Positions 9,392-36,771 of a DNA stretch of 42,114 bases are shown here, piece after piece. The position numbers and the translations under genes were made by a program. Within the stretch, counting starts at the first letter, position 1. Each line of letters starts with the position of its first letter. The DNA is from Candidatus Moranbacteria bacterium RIFOXYB1_FULL_43_19 (GTDB taxonomy: Bacteria; Patescibacteriota; Minisyncoccia; Moranbacterales; UBA11712), in NCBI GenBank assembly GCA_001784875.1, contig MFSH01000013.1, positions 1-42,114 of the forward strand, given 5' to 3'. The notes under the pieces were generated by a model, which ran no database searches, was not told the origin of the DNA, and saw only the letters and a program-made list of their open reading frames with translations.

Positions 9392-10926
9392 TGAGCAAAT
9401 CGAGGATTTTTTTTATTCTGTCTTTGGCTTTTTTGGCGGGTGTTTTTTTGGCATCGTTTTTTCAAATTGAAAAGTATATTCTTTTGCTCCTTGTCACTTC
9501 GGGGATTATTGTTTTCGTCATAAATTACAAAAACAAAAAAGTCATCGTCGCCAGCGCGGCGGTTTTGTTTTTGGCGCTCGGGATTTGGCGGACGAATGTT
9601 TCGCTCGACGCGGTAAAAAATAATTTAGCCGACCAAAAAATGGGCCCGTCGGAATTTGTCGGTATAGTTTCAAAAGAGCCGGAGATTGCTGAGCAGAACC
9701 AAAAAATAACAATTGAGTCCATGAACCATGACAACCACTACCGTATTACAGAATACGGTAGTGAAATGGTTGGTGGTGGAAAAAGCAGGATGAAGATATT
9801 AATGAACGTTTCTGCTTATCCCAGATATCAATATGGAGATGAAATGAAAGTAAGCTGTGTTCTGCAAAAGCCGGAAAATTTTTCTGAAAATTTCGACTAT
9901 CAAATGTATCTCGCCAAAGACGGAATCTATCGCCTTTGCGACAAGGCGCAAATAACTGTCGTTTCGAAAAATCGGGGAAATAAATCATATACTTTCATTT
10001 TGTCGGTTAAAAACAAATTCGAAGAAAAACTTTCGGCGATATTTCCCGATCCGGAAGGGGCATATCTCAAGGGGCTTCTGCTTGGCGGAAGTAAAAGAAT
10101 GACCAAAGACTTGAGTGACGCATTTCAGAAAACAGGAACGACGCACACGGTCGCGGTTTCGGGCTATAACGTGACAATCGTCGCCGCGTTTTTGATGTGG
10201 CTCGGGATCTGGCTGGGCCTTTGGCGCCAGCAAGTTTTTTCTTTTGCGGTTATTGGAATAGTTTTGTTTGTTCTCATGACCGGTGCACCGAGTTCGGCCG
10301 TGCGGGCGGGTATAATGGGAACCCTTGTCATCTGGGCGATGAAAGAGGGGAGGCTGGCCAATTCCACGAACGCGATTTTGCTCGCGGCCGGTGCAATGCT
10401 CCTGATCAATCCGCTGCTTCTCCGATACGATGCAGGATTCCAGCTTTCTTTTTTGGCGACGCTTGGAATTGTTTATCTGTCTCCCCTCTTGGAAAATTTT
10501 TTTTGGCGAGGGGGGAGAGCGCCGAAGCTGATTCAGGAAACAGTTATCCTCACCATGTCGGCAATGATTTTCGTTTTGCCAATTATTCTCAATTCTTTTG
10601 AAAAACTTTCTTTGGTCTCCCCTATTGCCAATTTTTTGATTTTACCGGTGATACCGGCGATAATGGGTATGGGGTTTGTGGCGGGGATGATCGGATTTGT
10701 TTTCGTTCCGTTGGGAAAACTCGTTGGATTCGTCCCTTATATTTTCCTCAAAATTGAATTGTTTGCGGTTCAATGGATGGCGAGTTGGAGCTGGTCATCG
10801 GTTGAGATCAAGAATTTTGGATGGGAACATATCACAATATATTATTTGATTTTATTTCTAGCGATATATTTTTATAAAAGAAAAAGCCGCCCGAAGGCGG
10901 CGGTGAGTCCAGAAATAATAATATAA
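9391..10926 (+). CDS. comEC: ComEC/Rec2 DNA-uptake channel (without the hydrolase domain)
   Basis: ComEC forms the inner-membrane channel for single-stranded DNA in natural competence. The 511-residue protein has the N-terminal hydrophobic segments, a soluble OB-like domain (about residues 75-200), and the competence domain with GLLLGGSKRMTKDLSDAFQKTG followed by HTVAVSGYNV and many membrane helices. The usual C-terminal metallo-beta-lactamase domain is missing here and is encoded by a separate gene at 11251. Translation starts at GTG without SD. A 12-bp-stem palindrome (9736-9763) is in frame within the soluble domain, adding NHYRITEYGSEMV-type sequence. Confidence 0.92.
   Translation: MSKSRIFFILSLAFLAGVFLASFFQIEKYILLLLVTSGIIVFVINYKNKKVIVASAAVLFLALGIWRTNVSLDAVKNNLADQKMGPSEFVGIVSKEPEIAEQNQKITIESMNHDNHYRITEYGSEMVGGGKSRMKILMNVSAYPRYQYGDEMKVSCVLQKPENFSENFDYQMYLAKDGIYRLCDKAQITVVSKNRGNKSYTFILSVKNKFEEKLSAIFPDPEGAYLKGLLLGGSKRMTKDLSDAFQKTGTTHTVAVSGYNVTIVAAFLMWLGIWLGLWRQQVFSFAVIGIVLFVLMTGAPSSAVRAGIMGTLVIWAMKEGRLANSTNAILLAAGAMLLINPLLLRYDAGFQLSFLATLGIVYLSPLLENFFWRGGRAPKLIQETVILTMSAMIFVLPIILNSFEKLSLVSPIANFLILPVIPAIMGMGFVAGMIGFVFVPLGKLVGFVPYIFLKIELFAVQWMASWSWSSVEIKNFGWEHITIYYLILFLAIYFYKRKSRPKAAVSPEIII
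9736..9763. repeat. In-frame palindrome in comEC
   Basis: CACTACCGTATT (9736-9747) and AATACGGTAGTG (9752-9763) form a perfect 12-bp stem with loop ACAG, inside the coding region of the soluble domain. Confidence 0.75.
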
Positions 10927-32799: not shown

Positions 32800-33308
32800 A
32801 TGATAAAAACAAAAATAAAAGATAGCTCACTTATTCCAAACGAGAGGATAATCAACCGCATATTCTTCATTCGCGGCAGAAAAGTCATGATTGACAGAGA
32901 TTTGGCAGAACTTTATGGGGTTGAAACAAGAACGCTTAATCAGGCCGTGAGAAGGAGTTCAAAAAGATTCCCGGGTGATTTTGTGTTCGAGCTTAACAAA
33001 CAAGAAATGGAAAATTGGAAATCACAAATTGTGATATCCAATCGTGAAAAATGGGTTTAAGGAAGCCTCCTCTTGCTTTTTCTGAACAAGGCGTAGCTAT
33101 GCTCTCGAGCGTTTTAAACAGCGAAAGAGCGGTTCAAGTGAACATCCAGATTATGCGGACTTTCACGAAACTGCGGGAAATACTTTCAACGCACAAAGAT
33201 TTGCGCGAAAAAGTAGAAAAAATGGAGCAAAAATACGACAAAAGATTCAAAATAGTTTTCGACGCCATTCGGCGGCTTCTCGAAGCCAAAAGAACTGAAA
33301 AACCGTAG
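32800..33308 (+). pseudogene. ORF6N-domain protein broken by a frameshift
   Basis: The first frame (32800-33060) has the ORF6N domain (IINRIFFIRGRKVMIDRDLAE, then LYGVETRTLNQAVRRSSKRFP) and stops after NREKWV. The second frame (from 33051) continues as [18 protein letters not shown] and ends in a coiled coil. Adding one A to the A5 run at 33047-33051 would join them as [17 protein letters not shown], the normal family sequence. So it is a -1 frameshift in a homopolymer, either real or a sequencing error. ORF6N proteins are associated with phage and mobile DNA. Confidence 0.85.
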
Positions 33309-33379
33309 CCAATGGGATTCCGGGACAGGAAATAGCTTTTGGAGCAGGTGCTTATTAACTAAATTACTTTATATAAAGC

Positions 33380-33411
33380 AAATTTGTCCAATCAGACTGG
33401 ACAAATTTTTG
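33380..33411 (+). terminator. Rho-independent terminator, overlapping a promoter
   Basis: AAATTTGTCCA (33380-33390) and TGGACAAATTT (33398-33408), 11-bp stem with a 7-base loop and TTG after. The right arm also holds the -35 box of the next promoter. Confidence 0.85.
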
Positions 33412-33426
33412 TTTTGGGTGTATAAT
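33398..33426 (+). promoter_or_regulatory. Promoter of the DGR target gene
   Basis: TGGACA (33398-33403), a 17-base spacer, TATAAT (33421-33426). The leader to the start codon is about 160 bases. Confidence 0.75.
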
Positions 33427-33470
33427 ACATCATTGAGCATAGCACCTTGATATTTTGTTTTTCACGGCAT

Positions 33471-33552
33471 ATCATTGCGGCTTTTGGCGAGCTTGCCCCG
33501 TGCGATGAGCTTTACGGGGTTTCTTGAAAAGTTTTCCAAAAACCGCAATGAT
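33471..33552 (+). promoter_or_regulatory. Large structured leader of the DGR target gene
   Basis: ATCATTGCGGCTTTTGG (33471-33487) pairs with CCAAAAACCGCAATGAT (33536-33552), 16 of 17 pairs. Inside is a hairpin CCCCGT (33496-33501) / ACGGGG (33514-33519) followed by TTTCTT, terminator-like. The SD GCAGGAGG is 25 bases after the outer stem. Confidence 0.65.
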
Positions 33553-33591
33553 GCGGCGCAGTCAAATTTATTTATTGCAGGAGGAACCGCC

Positions 33592-34233
33592 ATGTCGGAA
33601 CATGGAACCGCCTTCCAGCAAATGCCGGGATGGTATGTGGAATTTCAAATGGCAGTGCTTCGCGCATTGCCCCGTGACATTAATCGAGAAACCGCTGACG
33701 GTTGGCGGAATAACGGCGAGGCGCTTGCCAAAAATTTTCGGCAAATTTTGATTCCGCCGGATAGCAAACCGCTTGCACCGTCCGAAACTATCGATACTAT
33801 CATCCGTATTGACCGCTCGATCCGACCGGCTTATCCCGATTGGGTGCAAATGGTCATGCACCCCGAGCTTGAAGATACCGGACCAGCCGAGTTCGACCTT
33901 GCCGAGGTTGAACAGTGGCTGCACAACAAGCAAAAGCGGGGTGTGGTCGAGGGCAATGTCATTTATCAGTTTCTTAAGGATAACGATATGCTCAAAACAT
34001 GCCTTGGTCTGCGCGACGGCGAAGAAATCCAGAAGAAAGGTATTGATCTCTTCAGGAGATTCTTCAAAGGGAAAGCAGTTTATCTCTGGAAGTCTGTCGT
34101 TCGGGACCGCGATGGCTTCCTCGGCATTCCGTACCTCGGCGGTGGCGGCAGTGGGGTGATCGTGAGCAGGAGCTGGCTTGACCGCGACTGGTACTCCAGC
34201 GAGTCCGCGCTCCGTTTCGCAAATCAGCCCTAG
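33592..34233 (+). CDS. DGR target (variable) protein
   Basis: A 213-residue soluble protein, without signal peptide, whose last part is diversified by the retroelement. The ATG at 33592 is fixed by GCAGGAGG 7 bases before it. The N-terminal part (AFQQMPGWYVEFQMAVLRAL, GWRNNGEALAKNFRQIL) is not a domain I can name. The C-terminal part from about residue 160 has the look of a C-type-lectin-like diversified domain (VYLWKSVVRDRDG, then IPYLGGGGSGVIVSRSWLDR and ending ALRFANQP). VR spans residues of about 169-210. Variable codons are mostly AAC in the template. A terminator follows at 34283-34316. Confidence 0.88.
   Translation: MSEHGTAFQQMPGWYVEFQMAVLRALPRDINRETADGWRNNGEALAKNFRQILIPPDSKPLAPSETIDTIIRIDRSIRPAYPDWVQMVMHPELEDTGPAEFDLAEVEQWLHNKQKRGVVEGNVIYQFLKDNDMLKTCLGLRDGEEIQKKGIDLFRRFFKGKAVYLWKSVVRDRDGFLGIPYLGGGGSGVIVSRSWLDRDWYSSESALRFANQP
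34097..34222 (+). repeat. DGR variable repeat (VR)
   Basis: 126 bp aligning without gaps to the template 458 bases downstream. Of 126 positions, 105 are identical; of 21 differences, 18 are at template adenines (14 A to G, 3 A to T, 1 A to C) and 3 are elsewhere. The last 18 bases (CCGCGCTCCGTTTCGCAA) are the same in both, an initiation-of-mutagenic-homing-like end. Confidence 0.95.
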
Positions 34234-34282
34234 GATCTCGGAGTTTTAGCTCTTTTGGATCCTTTGGATTTTGTCCTTTCAG

Positions 34283-34316
34283 ACCCCCGTGCGGAAATGT
34301 GCGGGGTTTTTCTTTT
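34283..34316 (+). terminator. Terminator after the DGR target gene
   Basis: CCCCG (34285-34289) and CGGGG (34302-34306), followed by TTTTTCTTTT. Between VR and this is a weak 6-bp pairing AGGATC (34232-34237) / GATCCT (34258-34263), the place where some DGRs have a target-recognition hairpin. Confidence 0.65.
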
Positions 34317-34554
34317 GTGATAAAATAAAAAAGGTAGTAGGCGAATATGTGGGCGATTACGGTTTCCCGCTGCCGAATCCAGTATCTATACATCGAGAGT
34401 ATTCAAGATCAAGATTTTGAATAGGGTGGTGTATGCAGAAACTTCATAAAAAATGAAGATACTTGGTGCCAAATGCTATGCGATTTCAGATCGCGAATAA
34501 GATACAGCCTTGAGAGTTTTCAAGAGGCGGTGGTATAGACGGCATTTTGCACAT

Positions 34555-34680
34555 TCGTTCGGAACCGCAACGACAACCTCAACATTCCGTACCTCAACGA
34601 TGGCGACAGTGAGGTGATCGTGAACTGGAACTGGCTTGACAACGACTGGAACTCCAACGAGCCCGCGCTCCGTTTCGCAA
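34555..34680 (+). ncRNA. DGR template repeat (TR)
   Basis: A 126-bp template with 33 adenines, 18 of them substituted in VR. It contains ten AAC codons in the target frame, the codon best suited to adenine mutagenesis. It is expected to be transcribed and copied by the reverse transcriptase with errors at A. It lies between the target gene and avd/RT. Small hairpins (CTTCAT..ATGAAG 34442-34457, GCGAT..ATCGC 34480-34494) precede it. Confidence 0.95.
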
Positions 34681-34700
34681 CTCTCTTCATTTCTCCCTCG

Positions 34701-35042
34701 TTATTTTCCGGGGGAGTTTTGCTTGGAAAGCTGTCCGTTCCAACCGCCAAGCATCTGGCCGATTTCGCTCACTTTTTCGGAGAGAGCGATATATTTTTTG
34801 TTGTCCAAAGATTTTGTTTCCCAAAGAATCATAAGGAATATTTTGAGAGTGTCGGTTTTTCGGATGGCGAGCCGGACATAAGGCTGTTTTTCCTCGTGCG
34901 GCAAAAAACCGGCAATTGCGATAACCTCGATTATTTCCACGAGGAATTTATCAACTTTTTGTCCGAGGGTATAGCGGTGCGCTTTGGGCAAAACTTGATA
35001 ATAGCTATACCATAAAAGATATAAGAACTTCGCTTTCTGCAA
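34701..35042 (-). CDS. avd: DGR accessory variability determinant (Avd-like four-helix protein)
   Basis: Avd binds the reverse transcriptase and is needed for mutagenic homing in studied DGRs. The 113-residue frame (TTG start at 35042) has the family marks LPKAHRYTLGQKVDKFLVE, a long helical middle, KKYIALSEKVSEIGQMLGGW near the end. It is coded against the direction of the target gene and reverse transcriptase. The normal family N-terminus (LLPLLQKAKFLYLLWY) needs codons upstream of the TTG. They are open in this frame but have no ATG; the only ATG (35073) is separated by a C10 tract and is one base out of frame. With C9 or C12 it would give 123 residues or slightly more. Confidence 0.85.
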   Translation of the reverse strand: MQKAKFLYLLWYSYYQVLPKAHRYTLGQKVDKFLVEIIEVIAIAGFLPHEEKQPYVRLAIRKTDTLKIFLMILWETKSLDNKKYIALSEKVSEIGQMLGGWNGQLSKQNSPGK

Positions 35043-35058
35043 AAGCGGTAAAAGCGTC

Positions 35059-35068
35059 GGGGGGGGGG
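35059..35068. repeat. G10 homopolymer (C10 on the avd strand)
   Basis: Ten consecutive G on the plus strand, just inside the ATG at 35073 read on the minus strand. The run length decides whether that ATG is in frame with avd. Confidence 0.85.
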
Positions 35069-35109
35069 TTCATGGAAATGAAAAATTAAAAATTAAAAGT
35101 GAAAAATTT

Positions 35110-36144
35110 TTGAAAAGTCAGTTATCAAAGAAATTTGAGGATATAATTTCGCTGGAAAATCTTTTGGAGGCATGGAAAGAATTTGAGCGCGGAAAGAAGA
35201 ACCGGAAAGACGTGCAGGAATTTTCTTTGCGATTGCTGGACAATATCTTTTCGCTTCATCGTGACCTTCTCAATCATACGCATAAGCACGGCGGATATCA
35301 AGCGTTCAAGATCAATGATCCCAAACCGAGGGACATTTTCAAAGCGAGCGTTCGCGACAGATTGCTCCACCACGCCATTTACCGGATTCTTTATCCGTTT
35401 TTTGAGAAAACATTTATTGCTGATTCGTATTCCTGTCGGATCGGGAAAGGAACGCACAGAGCTATCAACAGATTTCGCGCGTTCGCATATAGGGCCAGCA
35501 AAAATAATACAAAGACCTGCTGGATTTTGAAATGCGACATCCGGAAATTTTTCGCGAATATTGATCATGGAATTCTTCTTTCAATTCTGTGTGAGTATAT
35601 TCCGGATAAAAATATAGTTTGGCTTTTTGGGAATGTGATCGAAAGTTTTTCATCCGCGAGGCTGGGCATTGGCTTGCCGCTGGGCAATCTCACTTCCCAG
35701 CTTTTCGTGAATATTTATCTCAATGAATTTGATCAGTTTATGAAACACAAGTTGAAAGCGAAATATTATATTCGCTATTGCGATGATTTCGTGATTTTGT
35801 CGGGAGATAAAAAGCGGCTGGAAAATATAATTTTCCCGATAAAAACATTTCTGAAAGAAAAATTAAGATTGGATTTGCATCCCGATAAAATTTATCTCAA
35901 AACTTTGGCTTCGGGCGTGGACTTTCTCGGAACGATTAATTTTTTCGATCACCGGATTTTGCGGACGAAAACCAAAAGAAGAATTTGGAGAAGGATAAAA
36001 GAGAAAAAATTTCTTCTGCGAGAAGATTTATTGTTGGAGGAATCTTTCAATCAAACACTGCAATCATATTTGGGAATATTGAAGCATTGCCGGGGATATG
36101 GTATCTTAAGGAGGATAAATGAAATAACGGAAGCTGTCTATTGA
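35110..36144 (+). CDS. DGR-type reverse transcriptase
   Basis: Copies the TR RNA into cDNA with errors at adenines; the product replaces VR. The 344-residue protein has the RT blocks: RDIFKASVRDRLLHHAIYRI, SYSCRIGKGTHRAINRF, KCDIRKFFANIDHGIL (first catalytic Asp at about 143), GLPLGNLTSQLFVNIYLNE (DGR-type GNLTSQ at 192-197), YCDDF (catalytic Asp pair at 225-226) and GVDFLGTINFFDHRIL. No maturase or other domain is present. The start codon is TTG 35110; no in-frame ATG precedes it. A terminator overlaps the stop. Confidence 0.93.
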   Translation: MKSQLSKKFEDIISLENLLEAWKEFERGKKNRKDVQEFSLRLLDNIFSLHRDLLNHTHKHGGYQAFKINDPKPRDIFKASVRDRLLHHAIYRILYPFFEKTFIADSYSCRIGKGTHRAINRFRAFAYRASKNNTKTCWILKCDIRKFFANIDHGILLSILCEYIPDKNIVWLFGNVIESFSSARLGIGLPLGNLTSQLFVNIYLNEFDQFMKHKLKAKYYIRYCDDFVILSGDKKRLENIIFPIKTFLKEKLRLDLHPDKIYLKTLASGVDFLGTINFFDHRILRTKTKRRIWRRIKEKKFLLREDLLLEESFNQTLQSYLGILKHCRGYGILRRINEITEAVY

Positions 36145-36172
36145 GCTAAGTCTGGCTTAGCTCACAATTTTT
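36142..36172 (+). terminator. Terminator of the reverse transcriptase gene
   Basis: TGAGCTAAG (36142-36150, starting with the stop codon) and CTTAGCTCA (36156-36164), 9-bp stem with a 5-base loop, then CAATTTTTG. Confidence 0.8.
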
Positions 36173-36186
36173 GTTTAATAGGATGA

Positions 36187-36771
36187 ATGCTCGATAAAAA
36201 CGACTGCAATGAAAAAAACGACGAAGAATTGGTCGCCCTGGCTCTCAAAAACCAGGATTTTTTTGCTTGTCTGGTGGAAAGATACGAACCCAAGCTCATG
36301 CGCTATGTCCGGCGGATTTCGGCTGCGACCCAGGAAGACGCAGAAGACCTTCTCCAGGAAATTTTCGTGAAAGTCTATCGCAATCTCAACGACTTCGATC
36401 CGGATCTCAAGTTTTCTTCCTGGATATACCGGATCGCCCACAACCAGGTAATCAGCTACTGGCGAAAGACGAAAGTCCGCCCGCAGGTACTAAAGTTTGA
36501 AGCCGACGAGGATTTCTTGAAGTTTATCGCGACTGACGAAGATCTGGCGCGGGACACCGAAAGGAAGTTTTCCGGCGAGGAAGTCCGGAAAATGATTGAA
36601 AATCTCGACGAAAAGTATAAAGAGGTTCTGGTTCTCAAGTTTTTGGAAGGAAAGGACTATAAAGAAATTTCGGACATTTTGGAAAAGCCTCTTGGAACGG
36701 TGGCAACTCTCATCAATCGGGCCAAAAAGCAGTTTGCGAAAATCACCAAGGAAAAGGGCATAAAATTTTGA
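36187..36771 (+). CDS. ECF-type RNA polymerase sigma factor
   Basis: A 194-residue sigma-70 family protein without regions 1 and 3. Sigma2: FFACLVERYEPKLMRYVRRI, EDLLQEIFVKVYRNLNDF and SSWIYRIAHNQVISYWRKT. Sigma4: YKEVLVLKFLEGKDYKEISD then GTVATLINRAKKQF (helix-turn-helix). It probably responds to envelope signals together with the membrane protein encoded next (anti-sigma-like). No SD is present. Confidence 0.92.
   Translation: MLDKNDCNEKNDEELVALALKNQDFFACLVERYEPKLMRYVRRISAATQEDAEDLLQEIFVKVYRNLNDFDPDLKFSSWIYRIAHNQVISYWRKTKVRPQVLKFEADEDFLKFIATDEDLARDTERKFSGEEVRKMIENLDEKYKEVLVLKFLEGKDYKEISDILEKPLGTVATLINRAKKQFAKITKEKGIKF

Follow-up and report, generated by a model that had tools for sequence, protein, structure and literature searches.

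The diversity-generating retroelement (DGR) of Candidatus Moranbacteria bacterium RIFOXYB1_FULL_43_19 appears to use a stand-alone template RNA, in which a structured scaffold 5' of the template repeat (TR) takes the place of the 3' spacer of Bordetella and Avd is the likely recogniser. We assign a probability of about 0.8 to this reading, which includes a functional-looking cellular DGR. The window analyzed here is the whole stretch of 42,114 nucleotides from contig MFSH01000013.1. DGRs are common in Patescibacteria (CPR), and this lineage is among those richest in them. By its content, the cassette is an ordinary CPR DGR of a type already known; what appears to be new is its template RNA.

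The cassette and its gene order

A sequence-only reading had described this locus as a complete DGR with an adenine mutagenesis signature, comprising a target gene with a variable repeat (VR), TR, an Avd-like gene and a DGR-type reverse transcriptase (RT). The locus was confirmed as a genuine diversity-generating retroelement, and the VR and TR coordinates and counts of that reading proved exact. The genes and repeats are as follows.

33592-34233, + strand: target (variable protein) gene, 213 aa; open reading frame with a ribosome site, homologues in CPR DGR loci
34097-34222, + strand: VR; 105 of 126 positions identical to TR, 18 of 21 differences at TR adenines
34555-34680, + strand: TR; aligned with VR over 126 positions
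34701-35042, - strand: avd (accessory variability determinant), matched by Pfam bAvd and PHROG; antisense between TR and RT
35110-36144, + strand: DGR reverse transcriptase; TTG start, motifs LGNLTSQ and YCDD

Adenines occupy 33 of the 126 TR positions, and the bias of the VR/TR differences toward them is highly significant (hypergeometric p = 3.2e-10). The changes at TR adenines comprised 14 A>G, 3 A>T and 1 A>C, and the three non-adenine changes were at 34113, 34168 and 34204; the TR codons changed in VR were mostly AAC, GAC or GAT. VR occupies the 3' end of the target gene, ending about 10 bases ahead of the stop, and no further copy of it was found in the rest of the 1.0-Mb genome. When 35 related cassettes were pooled, 585 of 660 VR/TR differences fell at TR adenines. 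Two similar copies could in principle arise as an ordinary duplicated gene end with a chance adenine bias, but this explanation is scarcely credible given the local p value and is contradicted by the pooled data.

The avd product scored 42 bits against Pfam bAvd, barely over the cutoff of 40, and matched the PHROG family "Avd protein of DGR" at 5e-14; against NCBIfam it remained under that database's own cutoff (56.8 versus 80 bits). The RT matched RVT_1 (3e-22) and PHROG (1e-104). Its nearest solved structure was 8ub7, "Reverse transcriptase" (1e-41), which we take to be the Bordetella bRT complex; the runner-up, a group II intron RT, was 20 orders of magnitude worse. In a phylogeny, a check that the sequence-only reading had proposed, the RT fell among other CPR DGR RTs. 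The TTG start of the RT sits in a T-run (35099-35113), where one extra T would fuse an upstream GTG; given this run, the start may be length-variable or reflect an assembly slip.

The order target (+), TR (+), avd (-), RT (+), which had been singled out for attention, is real at this locus. Since all related CPR cassettes with avd that we found share it, this unusual order is the rule in the lineage and not a peculiarity of the locus. The remaining genes of the window were, by reading of their translations, ordinary chromosomal ones (FtsZ, NrdR and anaerobic ribonucleotide reductase), and the cassette is therefore cellular. Just upstream of the target, at 32800-33308, an ORF6N-domain gene is split across two overlapping frames, predicted to be a frameshift or a relic.

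RNA structure on both sides of the template repeat

Comparison of TR flanks across loci showed that the approximately 200 bases ahead of TR are strikingly conserved for intergenic DNA. The following RNA elements were mapped around TR.

34321-34326, + strand: -10-like box TAAAAT with TGTGA ahead of it; probable promoter of the template RNA
34344-34554, + strand: structured leader RNA of the template transcript, about 210 nt; covariance model match, compensated pairs, held-out test
34349-34370, + strand: leader hairpin 1; held-out set, 98.5% of cells paired, double changes in 6 of 8 pairs
34388-34434, + strand: long leader hairpin 2, helices 2-4; held-out set, double changes in 16 of 16 pairs
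34451-34459, + strand: clamp 5' strand AAATGAAGA; pairs with 34684-34692
34466-34552, + strand: three-way element of the leader, helices 5-8; held-out test
34684-34692, + strand: clamp 3' strand TCTTCATTT; 9 bases between TR and the hairpin, 4 bases after TR
34693-34720, + strand: hairpin CTCCCTCG-loop-CGGGGGAG followed by TTTT; the template RNA probably ends here, and the structure is stable in 24 of 35 loci

In an alignment of 34 loci, compensatory double changes were present in 38 of 46 leader pairs, and the window leader folded better than 200 of 200 shuffles (z = -3.5). With 29 sequences as input, a covariance model gave a single real match in the window (cmsearch; 34344-34559, 207 bits, E = 7e-43), with the next at 6.9 bits. 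The structure was then evaluated in 33 held-out loci obtained by searches, all from genomes outside model building except L103 and L106, the genomes of which were in or near the training set. Here, 97.4% of cells were paired and 40 of 45 pairs showed double changes, in an alignment that was fitted to the model and so somewhat favors the structure. The margin over the controls was very large: 372 cells were compensated as opposed to 99 in shuffles, and sliding the partners by 1-3 columns lowered pairing to 38-52%. A 12-bp stem (34466-34477 with 34541-34552) closes the three-way element and stops 2 bases short of TR.

The covariance model matched the leader in 50 of 187 relatives. Among 380 genomes drawn from across the phylum, 67 carried a match, which nearly always lay next to a DGR. 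Within the 187-genome set, it was found in 44 of the 57 genomes with a strong DGR-RT match (E<=1e-60) versus 6 of the 130 others; the other 13 of the 57 had no leader match under strict filters. Most held-out loci had TR directly after the RNA, an antisense avd and RT downstream. The model found no leader in ten phage DGR loci, and searches of phage and plasmid records by DNA similarity turned up no real match either. Two IMG/VR matches, which might have placed the leader in viruses, were rejected as chance, consisting of a 20-base piece within coding sequence. Separately, two loci (L115, 1501-1717, and L136, 1501-1711) carry the leader RNA with no intact TR, avd or RT nearby; these are likely decayed cassettes, at least two such relics.

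None of the 4227 Rfam covariance models overlapped the leader (33000-36300, E<=1), and one sub-threshold match lay upstream of it (33274-33416). The passages on targets and ecology in Roux et al. 2021 (PMC8144416) make no mention of a conserved leader RNA, a clamp or Avd-RNA coupling. With respect to Rfam and to those passages the leader RNA is new, although surveys of CPR DGRs may describe it earlier.

The leader also pairs with the bases just past TR. In 34 loci, native clamp pairs were on average 2.2 kcal/mol better than swapped pairs (z = -7.3), and the repeat in 20 further loci gave z = -5.5, values possibly inflated by ancestry; in either set, 0 of 20,000 permutations were as extreme. 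Direct compensations were seen as GAAGC with GCTTC (L027 and L129). The 5' arm of the clamp is also able to pair locally within the leader. TR (34555-34680) is thus bracketed within a few bases, by the end of the 12-bp stem at 34552 and the start of the clamp at 34684.

Directly 3' of TR, a stem of 5-17 bp and then a T-run are present at almost all loci. The avd stop codon falls within the loop or close to it; in the window, it sits in the loop of the hairpin at 34693-34720. The sequence of this stem varies while its pairing is kept (CTCCTGC/GCAGGAG, CTCTCATC/GATGAGAG and CTCGCCCGAAC/GTTCGGGCGAG). The stems were found per sequence; a loose alignment on TR ends misaligned the hairpins, and RNAalifold gave no signal. 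If the template RNA ended at the hairpin, synonymous conservation of avd would be predicted to be highest at the overlap with it, and that is where the peak was observed.

These data bear on a different layout, a Bordetella-type RNA with a functional spacer 3' of TR, antisense to avd, and the leader as a regulatory or stabilizing 5' UTR. In its favor, bRT-Avd is recruited and cDNA primed by the 3' spacer in BPP-1 (PMC12875486), and transcription could read through from TR into RT. We nevertheless consider this layout unlikely: a terminator-like hairpin lies directly 3' of TR in nearly all loci, the dense compensatory change sits 5' of TR, and synonymous conservation is scarcely raised in the avd codons past the hairpin, on which grounds a functional spacer inside antisense avd was rejected. 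The idea that the template RNA primes with its U-tail on the end of TR was likewise rejected, as swapped-pair energies were unsupportive (z = 0.5); a base correlation between U-tail and TR end (Fisher p = 1.5e-4) may reflect ancestry.

On the 5' side, the -10-like box lies about 20 bases ahead of the leader in most loci. A box with at least 5 of 6 bases was present at a similar place in 31 of 35 loci, a level reached in 65% of shuffles, whereas exact TATAAT was found in 13 of 35 loci versus 7% of shuffles.

Covariation of leader and Avd, and a proposed mechanism

Over 54 loci, the distances between leaders were correlated with those between Avd proteins (r = 0.72, and still 0.72 as a partial correlation controlling for RT) but not with those between RTs (partial -0.06). 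Because leader distances follow Avd rather than RT, Avd is indicated as the likely recogniser of the leader RNA. The cassettes split into two Avd-leader subtypes that draw on one RT pool: mean Avd identity was 0.56 and 0.65 within subtypes as opposed to 0.40 between them, and mean RT identity was 0.62 and 0.69 within and 0.64 between. The correlation largely rests on these two subtypes. Inside the larger one it was r = 0.64, and inside the smaller one it was unclear (r = 0.19, p = 0.10, 13 loci). The same correlation could arise without binding if leader, TR and avd were exchanged as a block.

The genome under study carries one cassette of each subtype. The second is a complete DGR on another contig (L067, 9452-11922), with TR at 10406-10531, VR at 9973-10098, its own avd and an unrelated target. 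Between the window cassette and this one, the RTs are 79% identical, the Avd proteins 36% and the leaders 50%.

The leader could instead be a riboswitch-like or other control element of the cassette, with no scaffold role toward RT and Avd. Leader stems and terminators are able to act as switches, and the scaffold role is itself a prediction. However, the structure lies flush against TR, its clamp arm base-pairs immediately past TR, the leader follows Avd type, and no Rfam family matches it; we therefore hold a control element to be quite improbable.

Under the scaffold reading, the template RNA would be a transcript in its own right, about 390 nt long, running from a promoter at about 34321 to an end at about 34720 and consisting of the structured leader (34344-34554), TR and the intrinsic-terminator-like hairpin. 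Pairing of the leader with the bases just beyond TR would form a clamp and hold TR as a loop, bordered by the 12-bp stem on the 5' side and by the clamp and hairpin on the 3' side. Avd would most likely bind the leader and recruit RT, which would copy TR with errors opposite adenines. Copying would probably begin near the clamp or the IMH* end and stop at the 12-bp leader stem, and a stop there would set where TR begins on its 5' side. VR would then be rewritten from the cDNA, with changes to probable surface residues of the target protein.

The cassette resembles the BPP-1 DGR (mtd-avd-TR-brt) in its target with a C-terminal VR, TR, Avd, RT and A-to-N signature, and the window RT is closest in the PDB to 8ub7. 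The two differ in layout. In Bordetella, avd is upstream of the DGR RNA on the same strand, with a stop signal in the avd mRNA, and the 3' spacer is folded, brings in bRT-Avd and provides the adenine used for priming (PMC12875486). In the window, by contrast, avd is antisense between TR and RT and the structured RNA is 5' of TR; the BPP-1 layout is absent, as a terminator-like hairpin and T-run close the 3' side directly after TR. Every annotated avd in the ten phage DGR loci was also upstream of RT on the same strand, unlike that of the window. In retrons (msr-msd), too, a structured RNA encloses the template it carries, with the flanks on either side paired to each other. The window RNA is similar in this respect, but retrons have neither a VR/TR pair nor retrohoming, and the window RT groups with CPR DGR RTs.

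To our knowledge, the mechanism of DGRs is known mainly from one phage system. The design proposed here would offer a second, compact layout for targeted mutagenesis to compare with that of Bordetella. A structured template RNA found phylum-wide is a searchable marker for Patescibacteria DGR cassettes, and its structure indicates where the template should begin and end and points to contacts open to testing: Avd with the leader, the clamp and the stop stem. Should RT and Avd-RNA pairs prove to be separable modules, a cell with two cassettes, such as that of the genome studied here, could use a common RT and still keep the templates apart. A broader proposal is that Patescibacteria DGRs form a mechanistically distinct branch, with a clamp-closed stand-alone RNA, a 5' scaffold read by Avd, compatibility set by Avd-RNA pairs, exchangeable RTs and 8-nt repeats in place of the stem-loop signal. 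We offer it tentatively, at slightly less than even odds.

The target site and the target protein

Two features follow the target gene.

34234-34284, + strand: region after the target stop; approximately 8-nt direct repeats in related loci, CTTTGACC-like
34285-34306, + strand: terminator-like hairpin of the target gene; stable structure here in 24 of 35 loci

In BPP-1, a stem-loop follows the IMH at the target site. No such Bordetella-like stem-loop was seen just after VR in the 35 loci (mean z = -0.49, with 4 of 35 below -2). The region after VR instead showed an 8-base periodicity in self-identity (lag 8, z = 15.7; lag 16, z = 9.4; 35 loci). Repeats resembling CTTTGACC stand in tandem after VR in many CPR DGRs and are weak and degenerate in the window; our guess is that they might serve as a target-site signal.

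The weakness of these repeats, the three non-adenine VR/TR differences and the TTG start of RT near a T-run would fit a decayed relic in which VR editing has ceased. All reading frames are open, however, and the RNA, clamp and hairpin are intact, which makes decay an improbable account.

The target start is best placed at the ATG at 33592, just downstream of a GGAGGA ribosome site, and the stop at 34233. Homologues in CPR DGR loci were 45-56% identical; relatives with named records were mostly from Moraniibacteriota, and the family recurs in other Moraniibacteriota cassettes. It had no match in Pfam, PHROG or NCBIfam. The model of the N-terminal segment was of low confidence and partly helical, whereas the 154-aa C-terminal domain, which contains VR, was modeled by AF2 with a pLDDT of 92. 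Foldseek searches with two models gave no significant PDB match to this domain. Among weak matches covering at least 120 columns, the best TM-scores were those of snake C-type lectin-like proteins (0.32-0.41), and a divergent C-type lectin is a plausible reading of the modeled fold. By description, the cassette can be likened to the CPR-restricted DGR clade 2, the targets of which are said to be without recognizable domains in the passages on targets of Roux et al. 2021 (PMC8144416); it too is a cellular CPR DGR with a target without known domains.

The N-terminal part of the target was rejected as an order-wide family, since a search of 96 relatives returned only its own gene and one doubtful match; two matches were found elsewhere in the class (G147 and G167). 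Among other CPR DGR loci, the targets of L034, L039, L049, L055, L067 and L077 carry similar short N-terminal segments on differing VR domains, a pattern that suggests module exchange among CPR DGR targets.
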